A stretch of 46,819 nucleotides of DNA, taken from assembly GCF_900112595.1 (NCBI RefSeq), contig NZ_FOMI01000006.1, positions 1 to 46,819 of the forward strand, in the 5' to 3' direction. The DNA comes from Algibacter pectinivorans (lineage in GTDB: Bacteria > Bacteroidota > Bacteroidia > Flavobacteriales > Flavobacteriaceae). A model generated the notes under the pieces. That model had not been told where the DNA came from. It worked only from the letters and a program-made list of their open reading frames with translations, and did no database searches. Position 1 is the stretch's first letter. Each line of letters opens with the position of its first letter. The position numbers and the translations under genes are program-made. This document shows positions 3,789 to 29,248 of this stretch, piece by piece.

Positions 3789-4631
3789 ATGAAAACAAGT
3801 TACGAAACGCGCTACGCGTCCAGTCCAAAAGCAGTAAAAAAATACGACACACAGGAGCTAAGAGAAGAGTTTTTAATTGAAAACTTAATGCAGGAAGATC
3901 AATTAGTTTTGGTTTACACACATTATGATAGATATATGGCAGGTTCTGCGGTGCCTGTTGCAGGTCCAATAGCTTTAGAGACTATAGATCCTTTAAAATC
4001 TTCTTACTTTTTAGAAAGAAGAGAAATAGGTGTTATTAATGTAGGTGGCGATGGTACGGTTGAAGTTGATGGAGAAGAATTTCAATTAACTTTAAAAGAT
4101 GCGTTATACATTGGTAGCGGAAAAAAAGATGTGATCTTTAAAAGTAATGACAAAAATAATCCAGCAAAGTTTTATTTAAACTCAGCGCCAGCACATACTA
4201 GCTTACCAACAAAAAAGGTAAGTAAAGCAGATGCTAATAAAATAGAATTAGGATCGTTAGAAACAGCTAATCACCGTACAGTAAATCAACAAATTATTGG
4301 TGGTATAGTAGAAACTTGTCAGCTTCAAATGGGAATGACCGAGTTAAAAACAGGAAGTGTTTGGAACACCATGCCAGCACACGTACACGATCGTAGAATG
4401 GAAATTTACTATTATTTAGATATTCCTCAAGATCAGGCTGTTTGCCATTTTATGGGCGAGCCTCAAGAAACGCGTCATATCTGGATGCAAAATCACCAAG
4501 CAGTAATTTCTCCACCATGGTCTATCCATTCGGGTTCAGGAACTTCAAATTACACCTTTATTTGGGGAATGGCAGGAGAGAATTTAGATTATGGTGATAT
4601 GGATGTTGCTAAAATAACCGAATTAAGATAA
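3789..4631 (+). CDS. kduI: 5-dehydro-4-deoxy-D-glucuronate isomerase
   Basis: A 280-residue cupin-type isomerase that converts 5-keto-4-deoxyuronate, the rearranged product of unsaturated uronates from polysaccharide lyases, into 2,5-diketo-3-deoxygluconate. The metal site is visible as His198, His200, Glu205 (PAHVHDRRMEIYYY) and His247 (PPWSIHSG). The N-terminal YETRYASSP and C-terminal FIWGMAGEN are typical of KduI. It is followed after 3 bp by kduD, its pathway partner. Its presence indicates growth on lyase-cleaved uronic-acid polymers such as pectin, alginate or ulvan. Confidence 0.96.
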   Translation: MKTSYETRYASSPKAVKKYDTQELREEFLIENLMQEDQLVLVYTHYDRYMAGSAVPVAGPIALETIDPLKSSYFLERREIGVINVGGDGTVEVDGEEFQLTLKDALYIGSGKKDVIFKSNDKNNPAKFYLNSAPAHTSLPTKKVSKADANKIELGSLETANHRTVNQQIIGGIVETCQLQMGMTELKTGSVWNTMPAHVHDRRMEIYYYLDIPQDQAVCHFMGEPQETRHIWMQNHQAVISPPWSIHSGSGTSNYTFIWGMAGENLDYGDMDVAKITELR

Positions 4632-4634
4632 GCT

Positions 4635-5429
4635 ATGAGTACATCGTTATTTGATATAAAAGGAAAAAATGCTTTAGTAACCGGAAGTACCCATGGTTTG
4701 GGAATGGCTATGGCCAGAGGTTTAGGTTTAGCAGGTGCAACGGTAATCGTTAATGGTAATTCTTCGCAAGAAAAAATCGATAACGCTGTTGCGGAATATA
4801 AAAAAGAAGGTATAAACGCTGTTGGTTATAAATTTAATGTAGCTAATGAAGACGAGGTTATTGCAGCAGTTGCAAAAATTGAAGCAGAAGTAGGTCAAAT
4901 TGATATCTTAATTAACAATGCCGGTATTATAAAGCGTACACCATTAATAGAAATGGAAGTGGCCGATTTTAAACAAGTTATTGATATCGATTTGGTAAGT
5001 CCGTTTATAGTTTCTAAGCATGTTGTAAAAGGTATGATTGCTAGAAAAGAAGGTAAGGTTATTAATATTTGCTCTATGATGAGCGAATTGGGTAGAAATA
5101 GTGTTGGGGCTTATGCAGCAGCAAAAGGCGGACTAAAAATGTTAACCCAAAATATGGCAACAGAATGGGCAAAACATAATATCCAGGTTAATGGTATAGG
5201 TCCAGGATATTTTGCAACATCGCAAACAGCACCAATTCGTGTTGAAGGTCATCCTTTTAACGATTTTATAGTAAACAGAACTCCTGCAGCTAAGTGGGGA
5301 GATCCTAACGATTTAGCTGGTGCAGCCATATTTTTGTCGGCTAAAGCAAGCGATTTTGTTAACGGACATATTTTATACGTAGATGGCGGTATATTGGCAA
5401 CAATAGGTAAACCATCAAACGAAGATTAG
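4635..5429 (+). CDS. kduD: 2-dehydro-3-deoxy-D-gluconate 5-dehydrogenase (SDR)
   Basis: A 264-residue SDR. The cofactor loop TGSTHGLG (17-24), NNAG (94-97), catalytic Ser147, Tyr160 and Lys164 and the C-terminal YVDGG are all present. KduD reduces 2,5-diketo-3-deoxygluconate to KDG, following KduI. The start codon comes 3 bp after the kduI stop, which suggests coupled translation. It is only distantly similar to the first SDR of the operon, so the two are not a recent duplication. Confidence 0.94.
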   Translation: MSTSLFDIKGKNALVTGSTHGLGMAMARGLGLAGATVIVNGNSSQEKIDNAVAEYKKEGINAVGYKFNVANEDEVIAAVAKIEAEVGQIDILINNAGIIKRTPLIEMEVADFKQVIDIDLVSPFIVSKHVVKGMIARKEGKVINICSMMSELGRNSVGAYAAAKGGLKMLTQNMATEWAKHNIQVNGIGPGYFATSQTAPIRVEGHPFNDFIVNRTPAAKWGDPNDLAGAAIFLSAKASDFVNGHILYVDGGILATIGKPSNED

Positions 5430-5520
5430 TAAATACTGCGCCTAATTCATGCCTTTAATTAAGTTAAAAGCTGGGTTATGCGCTTTACCTTTTACTCGTA
5501 AAACATTAAAAACTAAACAA

Positions 5521-6702
5521 ATGAAAAACATACTATTTTGTGCTTTATTAACTGGGGCTTTTTTAACTCAAGGCTGTAAGGAAGAAGCATCAGGACATAC
5601 GGTAACTGTTAAAAATGTATTGGAAGTGTCCCGTTCAAATGAAACGGTAGAGATTAAAAAATCAGATTTAACGTTAAAAGAAGGCGAAAGCTTCGATAAC
5701 TTAGCGGTTCAAGATGTAACAACTAAAGCTATTTTAGTCTCTCAATTTGTAGATGAAGATCAAGATGGTAAGGCCGATGTGCTTTTATTTCAACCAAAAA
5801 TAGAAGCTAAATCAGAAAAACAATTTAATTTAGTTTCGGCTAAAGGTACCACGGCTCAAGAAGTAACCGAGTTTTGTTATTCTCGATTTGTTCCAGAAAG
5901 AACAGATGATTATGCTTGGGAAAACAATAAAGTAGCCTTTAGAACTTATGGTCCAGTTGCTCAAAAAATGGTTGAGAACGGCACCAAAGGAGGAACACTA
6001 TCCAGTGGTATTGATGGCTGGTTAAAAAAAGTAGAATATCCCATTATTAATAAGTGGTATGCTAAAAACGATAAAGCACCGGGTGCTTATCATTTACCGT
6101 CGCCAGAAGGTTTAGATAATTTTCATGTTGGTGTAAGTCGCGGTATTGGAGGAACAGCGGTAAAAAGCGATTCAACGTATTATGTTTCTAAAAATTTTAC
6201 TAATTGGAAAACTATTACAACAGGACCAATTAGAACAAGTTTTATTTTAGATTATGCCGACTGGGATGCTAACGGAAATATGATTTCTGAAAAGAAACAC
6301 ATTTCTTTAGATTACGGTAGTAATTTAACTAAATACGAAATAGAGGTTGGTGGTACAAATTCTATTTATTCAGGTTTAACCTTACATGAAAATGACGGTG
6401 TGCCAACAGAAAATGTAAACGAAGGATGGATATCCTATTGGGAGCCTCATGGCGATTCAGAGCTTGGTACTGCGGTAGTGGTGCCTCATGGAAATATGAT
6501 GTCTTCGGAGTATTTTGTTACAAGTTTAAAAGATCAAAGTAATTTATACGCTCAAATAAAAGTAAACCAAGAAAAAGCTGTTTTCTATTCAGGTTTTGGA
6601 TGGAAAGAAGCCAATGAGTTTACTACAAAAGAATCTTGGGAAAATTACATTAAAGATTTTACCTTAAAAATTAATAACCCTTTAGAAGTATCCGTACACT
6701 AG
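5521..6702 (+). CDS. DUF4861 family lipoprotein of the uronate operon
   Basis: A 393-residue secreted lipoprotein of the DUF4861 type. I place the start at 5521 because MKNILFCALLTGAFLTQGC is a clean lipoprotein signal with Cys19 after Gly18, and an A-rich leader (AAACTAAACAA) precedes it. An in-frame ATG at 5449 would add 24 residues and spoil the signal. The mature part is rich in aromatic and charged segments such as FCYSRFVPERTDDYAWENN, YHLPSPEG, GGTNSIYSG and VFYSGFGWKEANEF. No catalytic function is established to my knowledge. Lying between kduD and uxaC, it probably acts on or binds uronate oligosaccharides outside the inner membrane. Confidence 0.8.
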   Translation: MKNILFCALLTGAFLTQGCKEEASGHTVTVKNVLEVSRSNETVEIKKSDLTLKEGESFDNLAVQDVTTKAILVSQFVDEDQDGKADVLLFQPKIEAKSEKQFNLVSAKGTTAQEVTEFCYSRFVPERTDDYAWENNKVAFRTYGPVAQKMVENGTKGGTLSSGIDGWLKKVEYPIINKWYAKNDKAPGAYHLPSPEGLDNFHVGVSRGIGGTAVKSDSTYYVSKNFTNWKTITTGPIRTSFILDYADWDANGNMISEKKHISLDYGSNLTKYEIEVGGTNSIYSGLTLHENDGVPTENVNEGWISYWEPHGDSELGTAVVVPHGNMMSSEYFVTSLKDQSNLYAQIKVNQEKAVFYSGFGWKEANEFTTKESWENYIKDFTLKINNPLEVSVH

Positions 6703-20759: not shown

Positions 20760-23429
20760 ATGAAAAAAATCTACGCAATTTTATTTACGGTGTTTTTCTC
20801 TGTTTTATCTTTTGGGCAAAACGATAAAAGCTGGAGTAAAAAAGGAACGAGTAAAAAGGAAACTTTTTACAATGTTCAAGCAAAATTTAACAAATACTGG
20901 GAAAACAAAACGCCAGCAAAAGGACAAGGTTATAATATTTTTAAACGTTGGGAGAAAAAGGTAGCCGATAAGGTGTATCCATCGGGGGATTTGTCATTAC
21001 TTTCATCCAACTATGCTAATTACATAGAATGGTCGCAAAAAAATAAAGCTTTAAACAAAACAAGTGCGAAGTCTAATGCTTCAAGCTGGTCTACTTTAAA
21101 TGGTAATTCGGTAGCGTCGGGCTACGATACAGGTTCTGGTAGATTATCATTTATAACCTTCGACCCTATAGATGCCTCCACGTTTTATGTTGGCGCTCCA
21201 GATGGTGGCTTATGGAAAACTACAGATGGCGGTAATAACTGGACAACGAATACCGATTTTTTAAGTGTTATAGGTTGTTCTGGGTTGGTAATACACCCAA
21301 CAAACACATCTACCATGTATTTAGCAACAGGAGATAGAGGTGGAGATAGAAGAAGTATAGGTGTACTAAAAACCACAGATGGTGGTGCTACATGGAATCC
21401 TACAGGCTTAACTTGGACTGCGGCCGATAATTACAGAATTACAAAAATTGTTATGGACCCCAATACACCAAATACCATGATGGTAGCAACCGATGGTGGT
21501 GTATATAGAACTACCGATGGGTGGGCAACCCATACATTAACCACTAATGTAGAAGCGTTTTATGATATTGAATTTAAACCAGGAGCAGCCGTTGGAAATT
21601 CCAATACCGTTTATGCGGCTAGCGTTTATAACGATTCCGAAGGTTATATTTATAAATCGACCGATAATGGTGTAACCTGGAGTATTGCTTCGGGTATTCC
21701 AACAACCGATGTAAGTCGAATTGAAATGGCTGTATCGGCTGCAAACGTAAATGTGGTTTACGCCATTGCAGGAAACCTAGAACGTGGCTTAAGGGGTGTT
21801 TATAAATCGACCGATAGTGGATCTAATTTTTCATTGGTGTACCACACAACAGCTACAACTCCTAATATTTTACATGCTAGTGATAATCCACCTTCAGCAC
21901 CAACTCCAGGTTGGAATGGCGGACAAGCAGACCATGATTTGGCAATTGCAGTATCTCCATTGGATGCCAACTTAGTAACCATAGGTGGTATAAACCAGTG
22001 GCAATCTACAAATGGTGGCACCAGTTGGGAAAGAATAACGTATTGGTTGGGTGTAAAAGATGGTTACCCTGGGTCTCAATACCCATCAACTGAAACGAAA
22101 CCATATATCCATGCAGATATTCAATATATTGCGTATTCTCCGCACGATGATACTACTTTATATACAACTTGCGATGGAGGAATATCAAAAGGGATTTCAA
22201 ACGGACAATCGGCATGGGAAGATATTACCAATAACATAGCAGTTGGTCAGCAAACAAATATTGCACTTTCTGCTACAGACCCAAATAAATATTTTGCAGG
22301 TTTACAAGATATAGGCTCTATTATGGCAACTAGCGCAGGTATGTGGTCTGTTTTAAGTGGTGGTGATGGTGAAGATGGTTTTATAGATCGTACGGATGAT
22401 AATATCATTATTTCATCTACAACAAATGGGCAGTTTTACCGCACAAGTTATGGTGTGGTATCGTATTTTCCATCAACAAATGGCGAGTGGTTTAGCCCCA
22501 TTCATCAAGATCCAGTTGAAGCAGATTGGGTTTATTTAGGCGGAAGACCAGCATTATATAAAAGTACCGATATGCTAACTAAACCAAATGGCGATTCGGC
22601 TCCAAATTGGACGGCCTTAGGCACGCCTGCTGCTGGTAAAAATATTTTACGTTTTGAAATTGCACCAAGCAATAATAAAGTTATGTATGCCATTACAGAA
22701 AATAAACTTTCAAAATCTACAGATGCTGGAGTGAACTGGACAGATGTAACAGGTACTTTACCTGTTGGGGCGGCATCACTAAAAAACTTAGCTATATCCA
22801 ATGCTAACCCTAACGAGGTATGGGTTGTGTTTTCTGGATATAACGCGTCTAGTAAAGTATTTAAAACAAATAATGGCGGAACCTCATGGACAGATGTTTA
22901 CTCTAGTACACTGCCAAACTTACCTATAAATACTATTGTACATCTTAAAAATAGTACCCAAAATGGGGTGTTTATAGGAGCCGATATTGGAGTGTATTAT
23001 ATTGATGATTCTCAAACGGCGTGGACAGAAGAAGCCACCAACTTACCTAGAAACGCAGTTCAAGATTTAGAGGTGTTTTACACATCGCCTACAAGCGCAA
23101 AGTTAAGAGCTGCTACTTATGGTAGAGGTTCATGGGAAACAACTATAGACTTTACTACTTTAGAAGTTAATGAAAACACTATGTTAGCTTCTGAAGCCCC
23201 CAGGTTTCATCCAAATCCTGTAAAACAAGGGTTTGTAAATGTGAAGTTGAACAACCCAAACTCAAAATTCGATTTCGAAATTTATAACAACATTGGCCAA
23301 AAGGTATCTTCTGGAACAATTGACCGTAACAATACTGTTATCGACCTAAAAAATAACACTAGTGGATTCTATTTTATAAAGGTGAAAAATGAGAATAAAG
23401 TGTACAGTCAGAAAATAATAATTGAGTAG
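20760..23429 (+). CDS. Secreted Asp-box/sortilin-like repeat protein with T9SS type A sorting domain
   Basis: 889 residues. A signal peptide (MKKIYAILFTVFFSVLSFGQ) is followed by beta-propeller repeats with Asp-box motifs: TDGGNNWT, TDGGATWN, TDNGVTWS, TDSGSNF, TNGGTSWE, TDAGVNWT and TNNGGTSWT. This is the VPS10/sortilin or BNR-type propeller, often annotated as glycosyl hydrolase. The last 75 residues (HPNPVKQGFVNVKL...SGFYFIKVKNENKVYSQKIIIE) form a T9SS type A sorting domain, so the protein leaves the cell by type IX secretion and is attached or released at the surface. I see no confirmed catalytic residues, so enzymatic activity is open. Confidence 0.88.
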   Translation: MKKIYAILFTVFFSVLSFGQNDKSWSKKGTSKKETFYNVQAKFNKYWENKTPAKGQGYNIFKRWEKKVADKVYPSGDLSLLSSNYANYIEWSQKNKALNKTSAKSNASSWSTLNGNSVASGYDTGSGRLSFITFDPIDASTFYVGAPDGGLWKTTDGGNNWTTNTDFLSVIGCSGLVIHPTNTSTMYLATGDRGGDRRSIGVLKTTDGGATWNPTGLTWTAADNYRITKIVMDPNTPNTMMVATDGGVYRTTDGWATHTLTTNVEAFYDIEFKPGAAVGNSNTVYAASVYNDSEGYIYKSTDNGVTWSIASGIPTTDVSRIEMAVSAANVNVVYAIAGNLERGLRGVYKSTDSGSNFSLVYHTTATTPNILHASDNPPSAPTPGWNGGQADHDLAIAVSPLDANLVTIGGINQWQSTNGGTSWERITYWLGVKDGYPGSQYPSTETKPYIHADIQYIAYSPHDDTTLYTTCDGGISKGISNGQSAWEDITNNIAVGQQTNIALSATDPNKYFAGLQDIGSIMATSAGMWSVLSGGDGEDGFIDRTDDNIIISSTTNGQFYRTSYGVVSYFPSTNGEWFSPIHQDPVEADWVYLGGRPALYKSTDMLTKPNGDSAPNWTALGTPAAGKNILRFEIAPSNNKVMYAITENKLSKSTDAGVNWTDVTGTLPVGAASLKNLAISNANPNEVWVVFSGYNASSKVFKTNNGGTSWTDVYSSTLPNLPINTIVHLKNSTQNGVFIGADIGVYYIDDSQTAWTEEATNLPRNAVQDLEVFYTSPTSAKLRAATYGRGSWETTIDFTTLEVNENTMLASEAPRFHPNPVKQGFVNVKLNNPNSKFDFEIYNNIGQKVSSGTIDRNNTVIDLKNNTSGFYFIKVKNENKVYSQKIIIE

Positions 23430-23739
23430 AAAGCAAATTGAATTAAGCGGTAATAGGGTTTAATTGAATTTGATTAATAGCTTTTTCCTCATTAAACCAA
23501 TCCTGTATAGTTCGCTATGCAGGATTTTTATAATAAAGCTAATCACTTATCTAGACTAATGTTTTAGTTTAAGCGTTTATTGTGTTTTAGAACTTAATGT
23601 AAAGTTTGCATGGTATTTATGTTAATATTACTTAAAATTATAGAATTTGATTATTTTTTTAGTAAATTTAGACATCAAAAAAATATAGCCTATAAAACAA
23701 ATTTACCTATCATTTTAACCTAAAAACCCAGTAAAGATC
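23430..23739. other. 310-bp gene-free gap
   Basis: It contains the UUCG-loop terminator of the preceding gene (23499-23530) and the AT-rich leader of the next gene. I see no small gene, repeat or recognised promoter in the remainder. Confidence 0.6.
23499..23530 (+). terminator. Rho-independent terminator with TTCG tetraloop
   Basis: AATCCTGTATAG and CTATGCAGGATT pair over 12 positions (one G-T) around the stable loop TTCG, followed by TTTTAT. It ends the transcript of the T9SS protein gene. Confidence 0.88.
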
Positions 23740-23937
23740 ATGGCAAGAGCAATGCTAGATTACACCAAAACGATACTTAATAAAGTTAGTTTTGATGCGT
23801 CGTTGTTTTGCAAAGAAGTACAAAAGGCATTAAATAGATTGTTGCCTTATGAGATTGAAGAGCTTAAAATTTATATTCATTCTCTGGTATTGCAAAACCC
23901 AGAATTAAATCAATGTATGGTTTTATTAGACCATTAA
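23740..23937 (+). CDS. Small hypothetical protein (65 aa)
   Basis: 65 residues without a signal peptide or membrane helix. MARAMLDYTKTILNKVSFDASLFCKEVQKALNRL is followed by LPYEIEELKIYIHSLVLQNPEL, so it is all helical by appearance. It is probably a real gene: it has an A-rich leader (CAGTAAAGATC), normal base composition and its own strong terminator. I recall similar small proteins in Flavobacteriaceae but know of no function. Confidence 0.65.
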   Translation: MARAMLDYTKTILNKVSFDASLFCKEVQKALNRLLPYEIEELKIYIHSLVLQNPELNQCMVLLDH

Positions 23938-23942
23938 TTTAT

Positions 23943-23970
23943 AAAGCGACCAAACGGTCGCTTTTTTTTT
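23943..23970 (+). terminator. Rho-independent terminator of the 65-aa gene
   Basis: AAAGCGACC, loop AAAC, GGTCGCTTT and a run of nine T. It begins 6 bp after the stop codon. Confidence 0.85.
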
Positions 23971-24126
23971 GGATAAGTTGCATTGGTGCATCAAAATTAT
24001 GTAAATGGATTTTAAACCAAAAAACAGAATCTTATTGTAAGTGATTAAAACTATAAGATTTAAGGTAGAAAAGTGTTAAAGTTTTACATTAAGCCTAATT
24101 TTTATTATTAAATAATTTAATCTTTT

Positions 24127-24134
24127 TACATTTG
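24127..24134 (+). promoter_or_regulatory. Promoter -7 box of the MbnP/MbnH-like cluster
   Basis: TACATTTG exactly matches TAnnTTTG and lies 20 bp before the first start codon. TTTA at 24101-24104 is a weak -33 candidate at a spacing of 22. Confidence 0.5.
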
Positions 24135-24154
24135 TACTAACTATAATAGTTATT

Positions 24155-24532
24155 TTGAAAAGGACTTTAGTTTTTATATTACTTATAGCTTTTGTTATAA
24201 AGCCAATATATAACCTTGGTTATTTAGCATATTACGAAATAAATGTGGAATATATTACCGAAATGTTCTGTGTAAATAAAGAAAAAGTGGAACTTGCTTG
24301 TAATGGTAAATGTCATTTATCTCAACAATTACAAACGGATACAAACTCGCAAGAAGATAATAAAACTTTAGTCTTGTTAAACGAATATTTGTTTGGTTTA
24401 TACTTTCAAGAATACGAAAACTTCAAATATAAGGAAGTCAAAATCTCTTTAAATAAAAAAGTAAATTCATTATGTAATAACAGTTATGCCTATCTCTACG
24501 AGCATAACCATTTTCGCCCACCTATGGTGTAA
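24155..24532 (+). CDS. Small membrane-anchored protein with Cys motif, MbnP-cluster associated
   Basis: 125 residues. The TTG at 24155 is the only start that keeps the whole N-terminal helix (RTLVFILLIAFVIKPIYNLGYLAYY). Three cysteines follow in FCVNKEKVELACNGKCHL (Cys39, Cys49, Cys53), a C-x9-C-x3-C pattern that could bind a metal, with a nearby His54. The C terminus is tyrosine and asparagine rich and ends in HNHFRPPMV. It stands first in a cluster with MbnP- and MauG-like genes. Function is unknown; metal handling is inferred from the cysteines and neighbours. Confidence 0.72.
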   Translation: MKRTLVFILLIAFVIKPIYNLGYLAYYEINVEYITEMFCVNKEKVELACNGKCHLSQQLQTDTNSQEDNKTLVLLNEYLFGLYFQEYENFKYKEVKISLNKKVNSLCNNSYAYLYEHNHFRPPMV

Positions 24533-24655
24533 ATTGATTTCTTAAAACAGGCTAGCCAGCCTTAAACATTATTATTAAAAATCAATATTTTAACAATTTA
24601 GCAGCCGTCATTAAATTAAAGACGATTGGGCTGTTATAACTTTATACCATAATTA

Positions 24656-25456
24656 ATGAAAATTTTAAAATATACATTAGGACTTTTATTATCTATATTT
24701 ATTGCTTCTTGTTCATCAGACGACCATGATACGATGGAGGATTTAACAGGACAAACAGGTAGTTTAATACTTAAATTCGATAACGGAATAGGCAATCAAG
24801 ACTTTATTTTTGGTACAACATATACCAATTTTAAAGGTGAAACATATCAACTAGAAACTTTAAAATACTTAATATCTAATGTAAGGTTAACAGATAACCA
24901 AGGTAACACTTACACATACCCAGAAGAGGAAAATATTTTTATTGTAAGTGAAGCAAATGGAAATGCTGCAGGCGAAATATATATTACTTTAAACAATATA
25001 GATGCAGCAAATTATACACATGTTACCTTTGGAATTGGAGTAGATCAAGAGCGCTATGCCTCAGGAGCAGATGGTCAAGGCGATTTTTTAACCACCGCAC
25101 AAGATGAAGGCATGATGTGGTCTTGGGCAACTGGATATAGATTTATGCGACTAGATGGAACTTATTCATCGCCAACCAAAACTAATGCCGCATTAAATAT
25201 ACATATGGGTAGCGTTGGTACTTCTGTAGACAACTACAAAGAAACTACTTTAGCTTTTCCAAACGAGGTGTTGGTAAGAGAAGCTAAAGAGCCCTCTGTA
25301 CATATTAAAGCAGATATAGCTCAGGTTTTCGATGGCTTAACCTCTGTGAGTTTCGATGCTGGTTATGCCCAAGTACATACCGATGAAATTACAACCGGAG
25401 TTATAGCAACAAACATGAGTGGTATATTTTCTGTACACCACGTACATAACGACTAA
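24656..25456 (+). CDS. MbnP-like lipoprotein
   Basis: 266 residues. Lipoprotein signal MKILKYTLGLLLSIFIASC (Cys19). The mature part has the MbnP pattern: GSLILKFDNGIG, then TYQLETLKYLISNVRLTD, HVTFGIGVDQE and the key segment MMWSWATGYRFMRLDG, ending with IFSVHHVHND. The only two tryptophans are Trp155 and Trp157, inside the segment where MbnP of methanotrophs has a Trp that MbnH oxidises to kynurenine. MbnP/MbnH proteins are linked with copper. The di-haem gene follows after 125 bp. Kynurenine formation here is an inference. Confidence 0.85.
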   Translation: MKILKYTLGLLLSIFIASCSSDDHDTMEDLTGQTGSLILKFDNGIGNQDFIFGTTYTNFKGETYQLETLKYLISNVRLTDNQGNTYTYPEEENIFIVSEANGNAAGEIYITLNNIDAANYTHVTFGIGVDQERYASGADGQGDFLTTAQDEGMMWSWATGYRFMRLDGTYSSPTKTNAALNIHMGSVGTSVDNYKETTLAFPNEVLVREAKEPSVHIKADIAQVFDGLTSVSFDAGYAQVHTDEITTGVIATNMSGIFSVHHVHND

Positions 25457-25469
25457 TTTATTACAGGCT

Positions 25470-25514
25470 AGTTTCCTCGATAACTAATATCGAGGAAACT
25501 TATTTGTTTTTACA
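25470..25514 (+). terminator. Strong hairpin between the mbnP- and mauG-like genes
   Basis: AGTTTCCTCGAT and ATCGAGGAAACT form a perfect 12-bp stem with a 7-nt loop, followed by TATTTGTTTTT. It is a terminator or an attenuator that would lower expression of the haem enzyme relative to MbnP. Confidence 0.65.
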
Positions 25515-25581
25515 AATAAATAAATGTCTTTTTTAATACCAAAGCACCAGTTATTAGGTCTTTGGTTTAACGTTTATTAAA

Positions 25582-26628
25582 ATGAAAAAATTAGTTTTTA
25601 TAATACTAGTAGCTCTTTATGTAATGTCCTGTTCTAAATCATCTTATACCAATGATTATGTACCTGTTTACCTAAATGTAGAGCAACCAGATAATTTCCC
25701 GGAAATAGTTTATAATTTAGATGCTAATCCAGTAACACAAGCTGGTTTCGAACTAGGTAAAAAGTTGTTTTACGATGGTAAATTATCGGCAAACGATGCT
25801 ATTCCTTGTGCGTTTTGTCATGAGCAAGCCTTCGCTTTTACCCATCATGAGCATACGGTAAGCCATGGCGTTAACGGAGGTATTGGTACGCGTAATGCAC
25901 AACCCATGCAAAATTTAGCCTATCAATCTGAGTTTATGTGGGATGGTGCGGCAACACATTTGGATTTTCAACCAATTATTCCTTTAACGAGCGAGGTTGA
26001 AATGGGGGAAACCTTAGGTAACGTATTAAATAAGCTTAATGCCGATACGTATTATAGAAAGCAGTTTCCAAAAGCCTTTGAAGATGGCGAAATAAATAGC
26101 GAAAATTTATTAAAGGCGCTTTCGCAATTTATGGTTATGATGGTTTCCTCTAATTCAAAATATGATAAATACGTACGTAACGAAGACGGAGGCGAACTAA
26201 CCGAAATTGAATTAAATGGTTTAAATAATTTTAAAAATAAATGTGCAACTTGTCATGCTACCGATTTGTTTACAGATCATAGTTATCGTAACAATGGTTT
26301 GTCAATAAATCCAAAACTAAATGATAAAGGGCGTTATAATATTTTTGAAAACCCCAAGGATTTATACAAATTTAAGGTGCCAAGTTTGCGCAACGTAGCG
26401 CTATCATTACCATACATGCATGATGGTCGTTTTTCTAGTCTAGAAGCTGTTTTAAATTTTTACGATTCAGGTATGACCGATAATGGTAATGTAGATGAAC
26501 TATTTAAAAGAGAAGATGGTACTTTAGGAATTACACTCTCCACCTACGAAAAAGAAAGCATAATTGCATTTCTTTATACTTTAACAGATAACGAATTTTT
26601 AACAGATGAAAGATTCTCAGAATTTTAA
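25582..26628 (+). CDS. MbnH/MauG-like di-haem cytochrome c peroxidase family lipoprotein
   Basis: 348 residues with a lipoprotein-like signal (Cys17 in LYVMSC). Two c-type haem sites are present: CAFCH (76-80) and CATCH (221-225). Family segments are GKKLFYDGKLSANDAIPCAFCH, GTRNAQPMQNLAY, FKVPSLRNVALSLPYMHDGRFSSLEAVLNFY. Such proteins include CcpA peroxidases, MauG and MbnH; the gene order with MbnP favours the MbnH group, which uses a high-valent haem to oxidise tryptophan on MbnP. Activity is not shown by sequence. Its 3' end overlaps the next gene by 23 bp. Confidence 0.9.
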   Translation: MKKLVFIILVALYVMSCSKSSYTNDYVPVYLNVEQPDNFPEIVYNLDANPVTQAGFELGKKLFYDGKLSANDAIPCAFCHEQAFAFTHHEHTVSHGVNGGIGTRNAQPMQNLAYQSEFMWDGAATHLDFQPIIPLTSEVEMGETLGNVLNKLNADTYYRKQFPKAFEDGEINSENLLKALSQFMVMMVSSNSKYDKYVRNEDGGELTEIELNGLNNFKNKCATCHATDLFTDHSYRNNGLSINPKLNDKGRYNIFENPKDLYKFKVPSLRNVALSLPYMHDGRFSSLEAVLNFYDSGMTDNGNVDELFKREDGTLGITLSTYEKESIIAFLYTLTDNEFLTDERFSEF

Positions 26629-27610
26629 CAAAATAAGCCTATTTGTAATTGCTTTTATAATGAATATTCATGCTATTAAGGCTACCGAAATAGACCCGCC
26701 GTTTGATACCTATAAGCATGTTTTTGAGCCTTTTGGAGTAACGTGCGATTTGTGTGGGTGTTCTACAAGTTCTGGAAGCTTTGGTTTTGGCACGCTTAGT
26801 AATTCTAATTTTGTTGGTATTCGTTATATCTATCAAAGTTTTGAGTCTAAAGACGGTATTTTTTCTAATTCCCCAACAACTAAAGAAACTTTTAATACGT
26901 ATCAATTATGGGCGCAATTACCTATTAACGATGTTTTTTATTTAAGTTTAAATGTACCTTATCAAGATTTAAACAGAGCATATGAAAATGGGTATAAAGA
27001 GAATTTAAATGGCTTAGGAGATAGTAGTATAATGGGGTGGTATAAATTGCAATTTTATAAAAAAGAAAGTGACTCTTTAACTTTTAGTACAGAACGTATG
27101 GCATCTGGACACTCATTACAATTTGGCGTTGGTGTAAAACTGCCAACCGGTAAGTTTGAAGAAGCATTGGCAGATAATGTTAATCCTGGTTTTCAGGTTG
27201 GTACAGGCAGTGTTGATGGTGTTTTTGCTATTGGATATAATTATGGAAGTAATAAGTTTGGCGTTAATACGTTAATGACATATTACTTAAAAGGTGAAAA
27301 TAAAAACGATTATCAATTTGGAAATCAGTTTAGCTATTCGACAAATTTTTTCACTGCATTTTCAAAAAAAAATTATAATATTATGCCATTTATAGGTTTT
27401 TCGGGAGATGTTTATGATAAAATTACGCAATACAACGAAACCTTGGCCGATACCGATGGAAAGATATTAAGCGGTACAATAGGTTCTGAGGTTGCTATCG
27501 AGAAATTTATTTTTGGAACTAATTACACATTACCTTTAAGTCAAAATTTATTTGGCGGTAATGTGAAATCTAAAAACCGCTTTTCAATTTATGTAAACTT
27601 TGCATTATAA
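26606..27610 (+). CDS. Outer-membrane-like beta protein with CDLCGC motif
   Basis: 334 residues. I keep the start at 26606, overlapping the haem-enzyme gene by 23 bp, because it gives a full signal (KISLFVIAFIMNIHAIKA); the ATG at 26660 would cut into it. Mature residues begin with EIDPPFDTYKHVFEPFGVTCDLCGCSTSSG, holding a CxxCxC cluster, and then a series of amphipathic strands (FVGIRYIYQSF, FYLSLNVPYQDL, LQFGVGVKLPTGKF) that end in FSIYVNFAL, an aromatic C terminus usual for outer-membrane barrels. It is the last gene of the cluster. Transport or receptor function is inferred. Confidence 0.75.
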   Translation: MKDSQNFNKISLFVIAFIMNIHAIKATEIDPPFDTYKHVFEPFGVTCDLCGCSTSSGSFGFGTLSNSNFVGIRYIYQSFESKDGIFSNSPTTKETFNTYQLWAQLPINDVFYLSLNVPYQDLNRAYENGYKENLNGLGDSSIMGWYKLQFYKKESDSLTFSTERMASGHSLQFGVGVKLPTGKFEEALADNVNPGFQVGTGSVDGVFAIGYNYGSNKFGVNTLMTYYLKGENKNDYQFGNQFSYSTNFFTAFSKKNYNIMPFIGFSGDVYDKITQYNETLADTDGKILSGTIGSEVAIEKFIFGTNYTLPLSQNLFGGNVKSKNRFSIYVNFAL

Positions 27611-27649
27611 TGTATTAGTTGTATAATAAAAAACAAGTAAGCCTATAGC

Positions 27650-27695
27650 AAAAAAAGATTCGCAATTAATTAGTGTTATTGTGAATCTTTTTTTT
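27650..27695. terminator. Bidirectional terminator
   Basis: AAAAAGATTCGCAAT and ATTGTGAATCTTTTT pair over about 15 positions around an 11-nt loop. A runs on the left and T runs on the right make it usable from both strands. It separates the beta-protein gene (plus) from oxyR (minus). Confidence 0.8.
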
Positions 27696-27724
27696 GCTTT
27701 ATAAGAAATGGTAATTAGAATATT

Positions 27725-28663
27725 TTACTTAGGCAAGGGGCTAATAATTTTTACATTCTGAAAAGCAATCGCGCCACGTACCACTCCCGAAATAACATCT
27801 TGTAAGGCTTCAATAATTTGCATTTTTAAGCCGCTTTTGTGGTAAATTAAGCTGACTTCTCGTGCTGGTGTTGGCTCATTAAAGTAACGTAGATTTTCTT
27901 TTTCTTTTTCGCTAATTTCTAAGGTATGTAAATAGGGAAGCAGCGTCATGCCTAGTCCTTCGTTAGAGAGACGTATTAAGGTCTCTATACTTCCACTTTC
28001 TAATTGAAAAGTTTCTTCGGTTTGGCTTTTAAATACTTTACATAGGTTTATTACGCCATCTCTAAAACAGTGGCCATCTTCTAACAATAACATATCATCT
28101 ACATCTAAGTCTGCAATATCTATAGTTTTATTTTTATGTAGACGATGGTTTTTAGGTATATAATTTACAAAAGGTTCAAAATATAGTACGCGTTCTTTTA
28201 TATTTTCGTCTTCCAAAGGTGTTGCGGCAATCGCAGCATCTAAATGGCCATCTTTAATTCGCGCCATAATTTCTTCGGTTGTTAATTCTTCAATTTTAAG
28301 CTTTACTTTAGGGTGCTTTTTAATAAAGTTTCTTAAAAACATGGGCAGAAGTGTAGGCATAACCGTAGGTATAATACCTATTTTAAATTCACCACCTATA
28401 AACCCTTTTTGCTGATCTACAATATCTTGAATTCGGTAAGATTCATTAACAATATTTCTAGCTTGCGTTACTATTTTTTTTCCAACATCTGTGAGCTCTA
28501 TAGGTTTTTTGCTTCGGTCGAAAATTAAAACATCCAGTTGGTCTTCAAGCTTTTGAATTTGCATACTTAACGTAGGTTGTGTAACAAAGCATTTTTCGGC
28601 AGCTTTAGTAAAGTTTTGATTTTCGGCAACAGCCAAAACATAGTACAATTGGGTAATAGTCAT
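27725..28663 (-). CDS. oxyR: Hydrogen peroxide-sensing LysR-family activator OxyR
   Basis: 312 residues from the ATG at 28663. An in-frame TTG at 28672 adds three residues and is less likely. The N-terminal LysR helix-turn-helix is TITQLYYVLAVAENQNFTKAAEKCFVTQPTLS. In the sensor domain EDGHCFRDGVINLC holds Cys199 and Cys208, the same positions and spacing as the redox pair of E. coli OxyR. It is divergent from dps, with a 17-bp palindrome in the 102 bp between the starts. It should activate dps and other peroxide genes upon disulfide formation. Confidence 0.93.
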   Translation of the reverse strand: MTITQLYYVLAVAENQNFTKAAEKCFVTQPTLSMQIQKLEDQLDVLIFDRSKKPIELTDVGKKIVTQARNIVNESYRIQDIVDQQKGFIGGEFKIGIIPTVMPTLLPMFLRNFIKKHPKVKLKIEELTTEEIMARIKDGHLDAAIAATPLEDENIKERVLYFEPFVNYIPKNHRLHKNKTIDIADLDVDDMLLLEDGHCFRDGVINLCKVFKSQTEETFQLESGSIETLIRLSNEGLGMTLLPYLHTLEISEKEKENLRYFNEPTPAREVSLIYHKSGLKMQIIEALQDVISGVVRGAIAFQNVKIISPLPK

Positions 28664-28698
28664 TGGTATCAATTTAGGCTATAAAAATATAAAAAGTA

Positions 28699-28715
28699 TC
28701 AATAAAACTTATTGA
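28699..28715. promoter_or_regulatory. Palindrome between oxyR and dps (candidate OxyR site)
   Basis: TCAATAA (28699-28705), AAC, TTATTGA (28709-28715) is perfectly symmetrical. It covers the -33 TTG of the dps promoter. The position suits a LysR-type activator contacting RNA polymerase; the binding protein is inferred. Confidence 0.45.
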
Positions 28716-28743
28716 AATAGCTGTTAATTATAAATTAAATTTG
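28712..28743 (+). promoter_or_regulatory. Promoter of dps
   Basis: TTG at 28712-28714, 21 nt of spacing, and TAAATTTG at 28736-28743, an exact TAnnTTTG match. The start codon is 22 bp downstream. Confidence 0.55.
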
Positions 28744-28765
28744 TTGTAAGAAAATAACAAAGATT

Positions 28766-29248
28766 ATGACAACATTAAATAGTATTGGTTTAGATAGTGG
28801 CAAGACAAAGGCTCTAGCTGAAGATTTAAATAGCTTATTGGCTAACTTCCAAATTTATTATCAGAATTTAAGAGGGATTCACTGGAATATAAAAGGAAAA
28901 CGATTTTTTGATTTACACGTTAAATTTGAGGAGTTGTACACCGATGCAAATATGAAAGTAGATGAAATTGCCGAACGTATATTAACTTTAGGAGAAACGC
29001 CTTTACATACTTTCGAAGATTATTCGGCCAAGGCAAGAGTTCCGGTAGGAAAAAATATTTCGGAAGATGAAAAAGCCGTGCGATTAATAGTAGAATCGCT
29101 AACAGAACTTTTAAGTATTGAAAGAGCTATTTTAGATAAAGCAGGAGAAGCGAACGACGAAGGAACAAACTCTATGATGAGTGATTTTATTACCGAGCAA
29201 GAAAAAACTGTTTGGATGATGAAAGCTTGGTTAAATGAAACCGTCTAA
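28766..29248 (+). CDS. dps: Dps-family DNA-protecting ferritin-like protein
   Basis: 160 residues, the normal size. The ferroxidase ligands that sit between subunits are all present with the E. coli spacing: His39, His51, Asp66 and Glu70. RGIHWNIKGKRFFDLH is the family signature. Dps forms a 12-mer that stores iron and consumes peroxide, and often coats DNA. It is divergent from oxyR, a classical regulatory pairing in Bacteroidota. The N terminus is short and not Lys rich, so DNA binding may be weak. Confidence 0.96.
   Translation: MTTLNSIGLDSGKTKALAEDLNSLLANFQIYYQNLRGIHWNIKGKRFFDLHVKFEELYTDANMKVDEIAERILTLGETPLHTFEDYSAKARVPVGKNISEDEKAVRLIVESLTELLSIERAILDKAGEANDEGTNSMMSDFITEQEKTVWMMKAWLNETV

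Follow-up and report, generated by a model that had tools for sequence, protein, structure and literature searches.

A candidate copper-responsive leader ahead of mbnP and mbnH in Algibacter pectinivorans and other Bacteroidota

Analysis of a 46,819-nucleotide stretch of the Algibacter pectinivorans genome (contig NZ_FOMI01000006.1, positions 1 to 46,819; hereafter the window) identified four open reading frames (ORFs) on the plus strand within positions 24155-27610, coding for proteins of 125, 266, 348 and 334 amino acids (aa). In order these are a small leader, mbnP, mbnH and a gene for a predicted channel, the third and fourth ORFs overlapping (25582-26628 and 26606-27610). The initial annotation, made from the letters alone, had described this layout with its named cysteine, haem and tryptophan features, and a check of the ORFs and residues bore it out. 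We propose that the locus constitutes one copper-regulated operon.

The first ORF (24155-24532, plus strand) has a TTG start and codes for 125 aa with an N-terminal hydrophobic segment, the motif C39-x9-C49-x3-C53-H and a C-terminus reading FRPPMV up to the stop codon; a fourth cysteine is C107. No Pfam family matched the window protein at E <= 1, nor did DUF2946 (PF11162) appear among the family hits of 38 leaders at E <= 0.1. In the 38 leaders picked for alignment C39, C49, C53, P122 and P123 are invariant. Further leaders were collected by a contig scan with the cysteine pattern, ranked by the whole query, of which the best 80 of 585 were used (the titled leader loci); among these best 80 the closest relative is the leader of Algibacter lectus DSM 15365, with 79% identity.

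A Pro-Pro pair with at most 10 residues behind it, i.e. within the last 12 residues, was found in 109 out of 113 distinct leaders; three of the other four have 13-17 residues after Pro-Pro and one is a truncated ORF of 54 aa. The same placement was seen in 6 of 846 control ORFs from the same loci, and in 5 of the 258 that are no longer than 200 aa. The loci had been obtained with the full-length leader profile or through MbnP, and related species among the leader and MbnP counts are not independent. A profile of the N-terminal half alone, applied to the same loci, again gave 109/113, with 72/76 for the leaders outside the alignment. In the titled leader loci, the best 80 of 585, Pro-Pro is so placed in 78, the remaining two having 12 and 15 residues after it. 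The distance from the last cysteine to Pro-Pro varies between 62 and 73 residues (median 68, n = 109) and equals 68 in the window leader, and in 89 of the 109 an H, R or K immediately precedes Pro-Pro. All 16 Pro-Pro codon pairs occur among the leaders, which indicates that selection acts on the protein. The stricter pattern C-x-N-x7-C-x-G-x-C is present in 101 of the 113, a 17-aa segment with a hydropathy of at least 1.6 (hydropathy being the only measure used) lies upstream of the cysteine motif in 104, and 112 are followed by a gene of the same orientation.

The second ORF (24656-25456, plus strand, 266 aa) encodes an MbnP-family lipoprotein ending in HHVHND. It matched the Pfam family MbnP (PF20243) with E 8.3e-46 and 156.7 bits, well over the gathering cut-off of 27. 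A single-sequence search of the Protein Data Bank (PDB) with this protein returned chance matches only. The AlphaFold model (pLDDT 90.8) gave 7l6g as all six best Foldseek matches, with E-values between 8e-9 and 1.5e-7, the next match being at 0.027. Tryptophan occurs only at positions 155 and 157, as had been claimed from the sequence. The further claim that these lie in the expected segment agrees with the profile search, in which the WSW segment stands opposite W-N-W of 7l6g, although that match is weak (E 0.031). W155 is invariant in 39/39 aligned MbnPs and W157 is missing in two, including the second copy of this genome. The single cysteine, C19, is located at the lipobox, and the four-cysteine motif named in the 7l6g record is absent. 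By profile, fold and gene pairing, the second gene is an MbnP-family member as far as homology and a predicted model can tell.

The C-terminus of MbnP is linked to the leader. The pattern H-[VIL]-H was found in 37/37 leader-adjacent MbnPs (36 from the full loci described below and one from locus L060) and in 0/21 of the others, namely 0/13 from leaderless loci and 0/8 from loci with a distant leader, among which L079 was counted. The tail had been spotted in examples before it was tested; a narrower earlier pattern covered 20/37.

The third ORF (25582-26628, plus strand, 348 aa) encodes a MauG-type di-haem c enzyme with CxxCH motifs starting at 76 and 221, and matched CCP_MauG (PF03150) with E 5.3e-53 (180.1 bits against a cut-off of 25.6), in agreement with the earlier description of a double-CxxCH enzyme next to MbnP. 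The best PDB match, ahead of peroxidases, was 6e1c ('Di-heme enzyme', E 2.5e-38, residues 32-347 of 348), which we take to be the Methylosinus MbnH. In 20 aligned enzymes W120 and E140 are invariant and M279 nearly so, and the counterpart W, E and M are present in 6e1c. From this homology, conversion of a tryptophan of MbnP to kynurenine would be the expected reaction. Profile, fold and gene pairing thus support the MbnP/MbnH identity proposed initially. In one relative (L058, 4928-6011) mbnH extends over two overlapping frames, a possible frameshift or sequencing error.

The product of the fourth ORF (26606-27610, plus strand, 334 aa) is predicted to be an outer-membrane beta-barrel channel. 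Its AlphaFold model (pLDDT 82.7) matched FapF (5o67, E 1.3e-11) and a COG4313 channel (4rl8, E 1.8e-10) in Foldseek. The initial annotation had called it a barrel-like CDLCGC protein; the model contains a barrel, and the motif occupies residues 47-52, within a low-confidence N-terminal stretch (residues 26-61 below 50). Among 34 homologues C47, D48 and C50 are invariant and C52 nearly so.

Of 299 genomes of the family, 70 contain an MbnP relative at E <= 1e-10. Sixty MbnP loci were compared: the second copy of this genome, and 59 regions covering 60 of the 74 listed MbnP places (13 weaker places were left out, and the remaining one is that of the window). The adjacent order leader, mbnP, mbnH, channel occurs in 36/60, and mbnH adjoins mbnP in 58/60; the four-gene grouping proposed for checking in the initial annotation exceeds chance. 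Two more loci have an adjacent leader and mbnH with the channel out of reach: L060, where a second mbnPH pair lies in between, and L079, whose adjacent leader is the truncated 54-aa ORF. In seven the leader is located further upstream, in 13 (including the second copy of this genome) neither leader nor channel was found near an mbnPH pair, and in two no partner gene was found. An ORF of 661-678 aa separates leader and mbnP in six of the seven further-upstream loci; the one that was scanned had no Pfam match. The order in L075, L076 and L080-L083 is leader, a protein of 305-309 aa, the 661-678 aa protein, mbnP and mbnH, the approximately 307-aa protein being YtkA-like in the two loci scanned, with a score that exceeds the Pfam cut-off in L082 and falls short of it in L080; L076 contains an additional 171-aa ORF in between. 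The second MbnP/MbnH pair of the A. pectinivorans genome (positions 4091-5907 of locus L091, on contig C12) has no leader or channel nearby and carries W-N-V in place of W-x-W.

The leader is not confined to mbnP operons. It was detected at E <= 1e-6 in 100 of 296 genomes of the phylum. In 60 leader loci hand-picked from the phylum list, one of them from the genome of the window and one (L127) a duplicate of L064, 18 also contained mbnP within the stretch compared. Leaving mbnP/mbnH aside, the first downstream genes (n = 42) included 26 with a TonB receptor plug domain, four YtkA and one SCO1, and second downstream genes (n = 30) included six PepSY_TM and two SCO1, the remainder being mixed. 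To judge from these family assignments, the downstream genes point to copper. Among the titled leader loci (best 80 of 585) the next gene is mbnP in 32, 31 of which have mbnH and the channel behind it; a protein of more than 600 aa in 29, of which 24 are followed by a protein of 390-429 or 450-459 aa; the channel in eight; a second leader in two; and something else in nine. The window's own genome contains one further leader (L123, C12:324000-336000), heading a TonB receptor and PepSY_TM. Double leaders were observed in L057, L058, L059, L060 and L084, L060 also having two tandem MbnP/MbnH pairs. Partial relatives covering 57-58% of the query and annotated as hypothetical protein are present on Spirosoma/Hymenobacter plasmids (NZ_CP089541.1, NZ_CP094670.1, NZ_CP095063.1).

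The sequence TACATTTG (24127-24134, plus strand), located 20 nt 5' of the leader start and also preceding the A. lectus leader, matches TAnnTTTG, which we take to be the consensus of the Bacteroidota -7 promoter element. TAnnTTTG was found in the 120 nt before the leader in 52/104 cases and in the gap between leader and next gene in 3/101; its density upstream of leaders is 4.3 per kb compared with 0.72 per kb in whole loci. The distribution argues for a promoter ahead of the leader and against one in front of the following gene.

The 123 nt between leader and mbnP (24533-24655, plus strand) would fold into a stem just 3' of the leader stop codon and another hairpin some 20 nt upstream of the mbnP start; folds of the window (z -1.8) and of the A. 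lectus locus L183 have the same two-hairpin form. In many relatives the pairing is of another kind. To count as stop-anchored, a stem had to pair five or more of the nine bases counted from the leader stop with partners among the 34 final bases of the fragment, a segment that extends through the start codon of mbnP. Such stems reach near mbnP in 35 of 73 leader-mbnP gaps, with 9.8 expected (sd 2.9) from shuffles; the controls gave 14/150 for other gaps (23.2 expected) and 12/37 for gaps between leaders and other genes (6.1 expected). The stems vary in sequence with pairing preserved, for example TAAGTTT with AAACTTA, TAAAATTT with AAATTTTA, and TAATTTTA with TAAAATTA. The 5' arm would be occupied by a ribosome halted at Pro-Pro, two codons short of the stop.

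Between mbnP and mbnH lies a hairpin of 13 pairs followed by a T-rich stretch (25470-25500, plus strand). This hairpin, like the stop-anchored stem, was noticed in examples and then tested. The mbnP-mbnH gaps of 30-125 nt had z < -2 in 32/37 (median -5.3), compared with 33/119 (median -0.8) for other same-strand gaps, and relatives with a leader and a gap of sufficient length mostly keep a hairpin of unrelated sequence. Against its generality, 8/37 leader-adjacent loci have gaps shorter than 30 nt, with little or no room for it. In the 13 leaderless mbnPH pairs the gap is at most 9 nt or the genes overlap. The hairpin may set the MbnP:MbnH ratio, with MbnP exceeding MbnH.

These observations could be explained if the leader is a copper-responsive arrest peptide controlling an operon for MbnP and MbnH, which we consider probable, leaving the polarity open. 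The leader would be translated and its N-terminal hydrophobic segment would enter the Sec translocon. Arg/Lys/His-Pro-Pro a few codons before the stop would then slow or arrest the ribosome, at which moment C-x9-C-x3-C, some 68 residues back, would lie just beyond tunnel and translocon and could meet copper; about 68 residues would probably be enough to bridge the two. Whether the ribosome stays or leaves would decide if the RNA at the leader stop opens and mbnP is expressed. MbnP would be exported as a lipoprotein, and MbnH would oxidise W155 or W157 to kynurenine, W155 being the residue conserved throughout; this would complete a copper site. The channel may help copper or a copper complex across the outer membrane. 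Stalling, copper sensing, its polarity, kynurenine, copper binding and transport are what we infer; the steps from stalling to copper release are modelled on CruR and CutF.

CruR (DUF2946) of Bordetella is, in the accessible text of PMC9426467, a small leader at the head of a copper operon that also contains a TonB receptor and PepSY_TM; it carries a cysteine motif and, close to its C-terminal end, Pro-Pro. The same text mentions CruR-type operons with MbnPH-like genes. The second leader of the A. pectinivorans genome, with its TonB receptor and PepSY_TM, has the layout of Bordetella cruR-crtA-crpH, an operon described in the available part of PMC13038864 as maximally expressed under copper limitation, and CruR arrest has been demonstrated in vitro (PMC12992588). 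The present leader differs in having C-x9-C-x3-C rather than CXXC, mostly [HRK]-P-P rather than RAPP, about 68 rather than 45 residues between cysteines and Pro-Pro, no DUF2946 match, and Bacteroidota hosts. CutF of Rhodobacter, an exported leader, resembles it in CxxxC, a Pro-rich C-terminus and an intergenic stem-loop before the regulated gene, and differs in controlling a multicopper oxidase gene and in being copper-activated (accessible text of PMC9973294). The window leader passes three of the CutF-like filters given in that text: less than 150 aa (125), Pro-Pro no more than 15 residues from the end (P122-P123 of 125) and a same-strand downstream gene within 1000 nt (mbnP, at 123 nt). On a further filter, a signal peptide, the observation is the hydropathy segment seen in 104 of 113 leaders. 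Bacteroidota made up 19% of the final CutF-like list before normalising. According to the same sources CruR has 45 residues in this interval and functions without its signal peptide, whereas CutF requires export, which makes periplasmic sensing more likely here. Of the two polarities, the likelier is that a stall holding under copper scarcity keeps the operon on and that copper releases the stall and turns it off, because TonB-receptor/PepSY_TM operons headed by this leader family resemble the import operon of Bordetella, which is maximal when copper is limiting.

The protein pair resembles MbnP/MbnH of Methylosinus trichosporium (7l6g, 6e1c) in gene pairing, fold, the WxW segment and two haem motifs. 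It differs in that the four-cysteine motif is missing, an MNIO gene was not found in the assembly, a leader and a channel are added, and MbnP has the C-terminal H-[VIL]-H tied to an adjacent leader. The channel shares the barrel fold of FapF and COG4313 channels and is set apart by the N-terminal CDxCGC and its linkage to the leader. Functionally, CorA/CorB and MopE/SACCP of methanotrophs, the former including a copper-repressed kynurenine copper protein, are alike as surface copper proteins with a di-haem partner (accessible text of PMC3912023); the sequences of MopE/CorA and MbnP are not markedly similar in the part of the 2013 survey consulted (PMC3621798).

Gene order, leader architecture, Pro-Pro and its spacing, promoter placement, RNA stems in relatives and the MbnP fold were all shown by comparison, within what sequence comparison can show. 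Several points nevertheless weigh against the arrest-peptide reading, which is itself drawn from comparison. The window leader ends in F-R-P-P and not R-A-P-P; Pro-Pro alone may stall weakly, and the Pro-rich end of CutF is by itself not a strong stall (PMC9973294, in part); CutF having a polarity opposite to CruR in that source, the direction of switching is uncertain. Membership of the leader in DUF2946 was rejected, with no profile match and 0/21 related genomes at E <= 0.01. In the window and its nearest relative the stop-anchored form gives way to a pair of separate hairpins, the stop stem pairing inside the gap; that form was moreover tested only after it had been noticed in examples. 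Overall folding energy, considered as an indicator of riboregulation, was rejected (median z -2.0, n = 87, for leader gaps versus -2.1, n = 179; p 0.84). For the proteins, MbnP scored 57.5 against the TIGR04052 equivalog cut-off of 140, a profile that 35/39 aligned MbnPs matched at E <= 0.001, and MbnH scored 223.7 bits against 362.85 for TIGR04039; the enzyme step is drawn from homology.

Gene 1 could instead encode a real small copper-binding protein of the periplasm or inner membrane, handing copper to MbnP or MbnH and using its Pro-Pro end for membrane anchoring or partner contact. Its hydrophobic segment, plausible thiolate site and presence in operons with copper-type genes would suit this, yet the region from the cysteines to Pro-Pro is variable in sequence and constant in length (62-73), Pro-Pro is located at the stop, and the next gene is on the same strand in 112/113; we regard this explanation as unlikely. 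A variant of the arrest-peptide reading itself is that copper causes the stall and switches MbnP/MbnH on, as protection from excess. CutF, with CxxxC, a Pro-rich end, a need for co-translational export and expression enhanced by copper (PMC9973294, accessible text), provides the precedent, and the C-x3-C spacing of the leader is CutF-like. Against it stand the TonB-receptor/PepSY_TM import-type operons headed by the leader family, maximal under copper limitation in Bordetella (PMC13038864, in part), and the copper repression of the functionally similar CorA (PMC3912023, in part), and we would call this variant somewhat doubtful. That MbnH is just another di-haem cytochrome c peroxidase, with MbnP as a metal or redox-partner lipoprotein bearing no modification, appears quite improbable given that the best solved relative is MbnH 6e1c (aligned residues 32-347 of 348), that mbnH adjoins mbnP in 58/60 loci and that W155 is invariant in 39/39, even though bacterial cytochrome c peroxidases come close behind among the PDB matches and the score lies below the TIGR04039 equivalog cut-off.

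The arrest-peptide reading changes the picture of a stand-alone surface metal system with two extra Cys-motif proteins. An MbnP/MbnH pair was indeed found, with 0 matches to the MNIO family (PF05114) at E <= 0.01 in this assembly, in line with the earlier remark that no such gene was visible, and both C-x9-C-x3-C and CDLCGC were confirmed; gene 1, however, is most likely a regulatory leader and not a surface component. Such pairs had already been described in 2013 well outside the methanobactin producers (PMC3621798, in part), and a stand-alone pair is therefore not new by itself.

A terminator-like hairpin (23943-23964) is located 3' of the gene preceding the four ORFs. At 20760-23429 a profile scan revealed an 889-aa sortilin/Vps10-like repeat protein with a type IX secretion tail. 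Directly adjoining the operon are a divergent pair, presumably a LysR-type regulator (27725-28672, minus strand) and a Dps-like protein (28766-29248, plus strand). The search for known RNA families in 23400-28800 gave solely mir-15 matches below threshold, located on both strands of 27633-27712 in the interval separating two convergent genes; these were taken as chance.

Every element described here is already known; the combination, the leader family and the tight ruler were not found described in the literature searched, nor was a Bacteroidota MbnP/MbnH operon headed by a leader of this kind, supplements and most subscription papers being outside the reach of that search. More broadly, we see about an even chance that Bacteroidota possess a widespread family of periplasm-facing copper-sensing arrest peptides that lack a DUF2946 match and in which the narrowly conserved distance of about 68 residues from cysteines to Pro-Pro would be a ruler across tunnel and translocon. 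One branch of this family would be coupled to a kynurenine site (MbnP/MbnH with the His-x-His tail found in that branch alone) and a channel, a second hairpin setting the ratio of substrate to enzyme. To our knowledge, copper acquisition in Bacteroidota is poorly described. If the proposal is true, a small ORF of no known family would switch two types of operon, TonB receptor/PepSY_TM and MbnP/MbnH/channel, in response to copper throughout a large part of the phylum. The leader would then serve as a handle to find copper genes by their first gene, would give a direct test of the role of MbnP/MbnH outside methanotrophs, and would provide a natural example of how a nascent chain can use its length as a ruler in periplasmic sensing.

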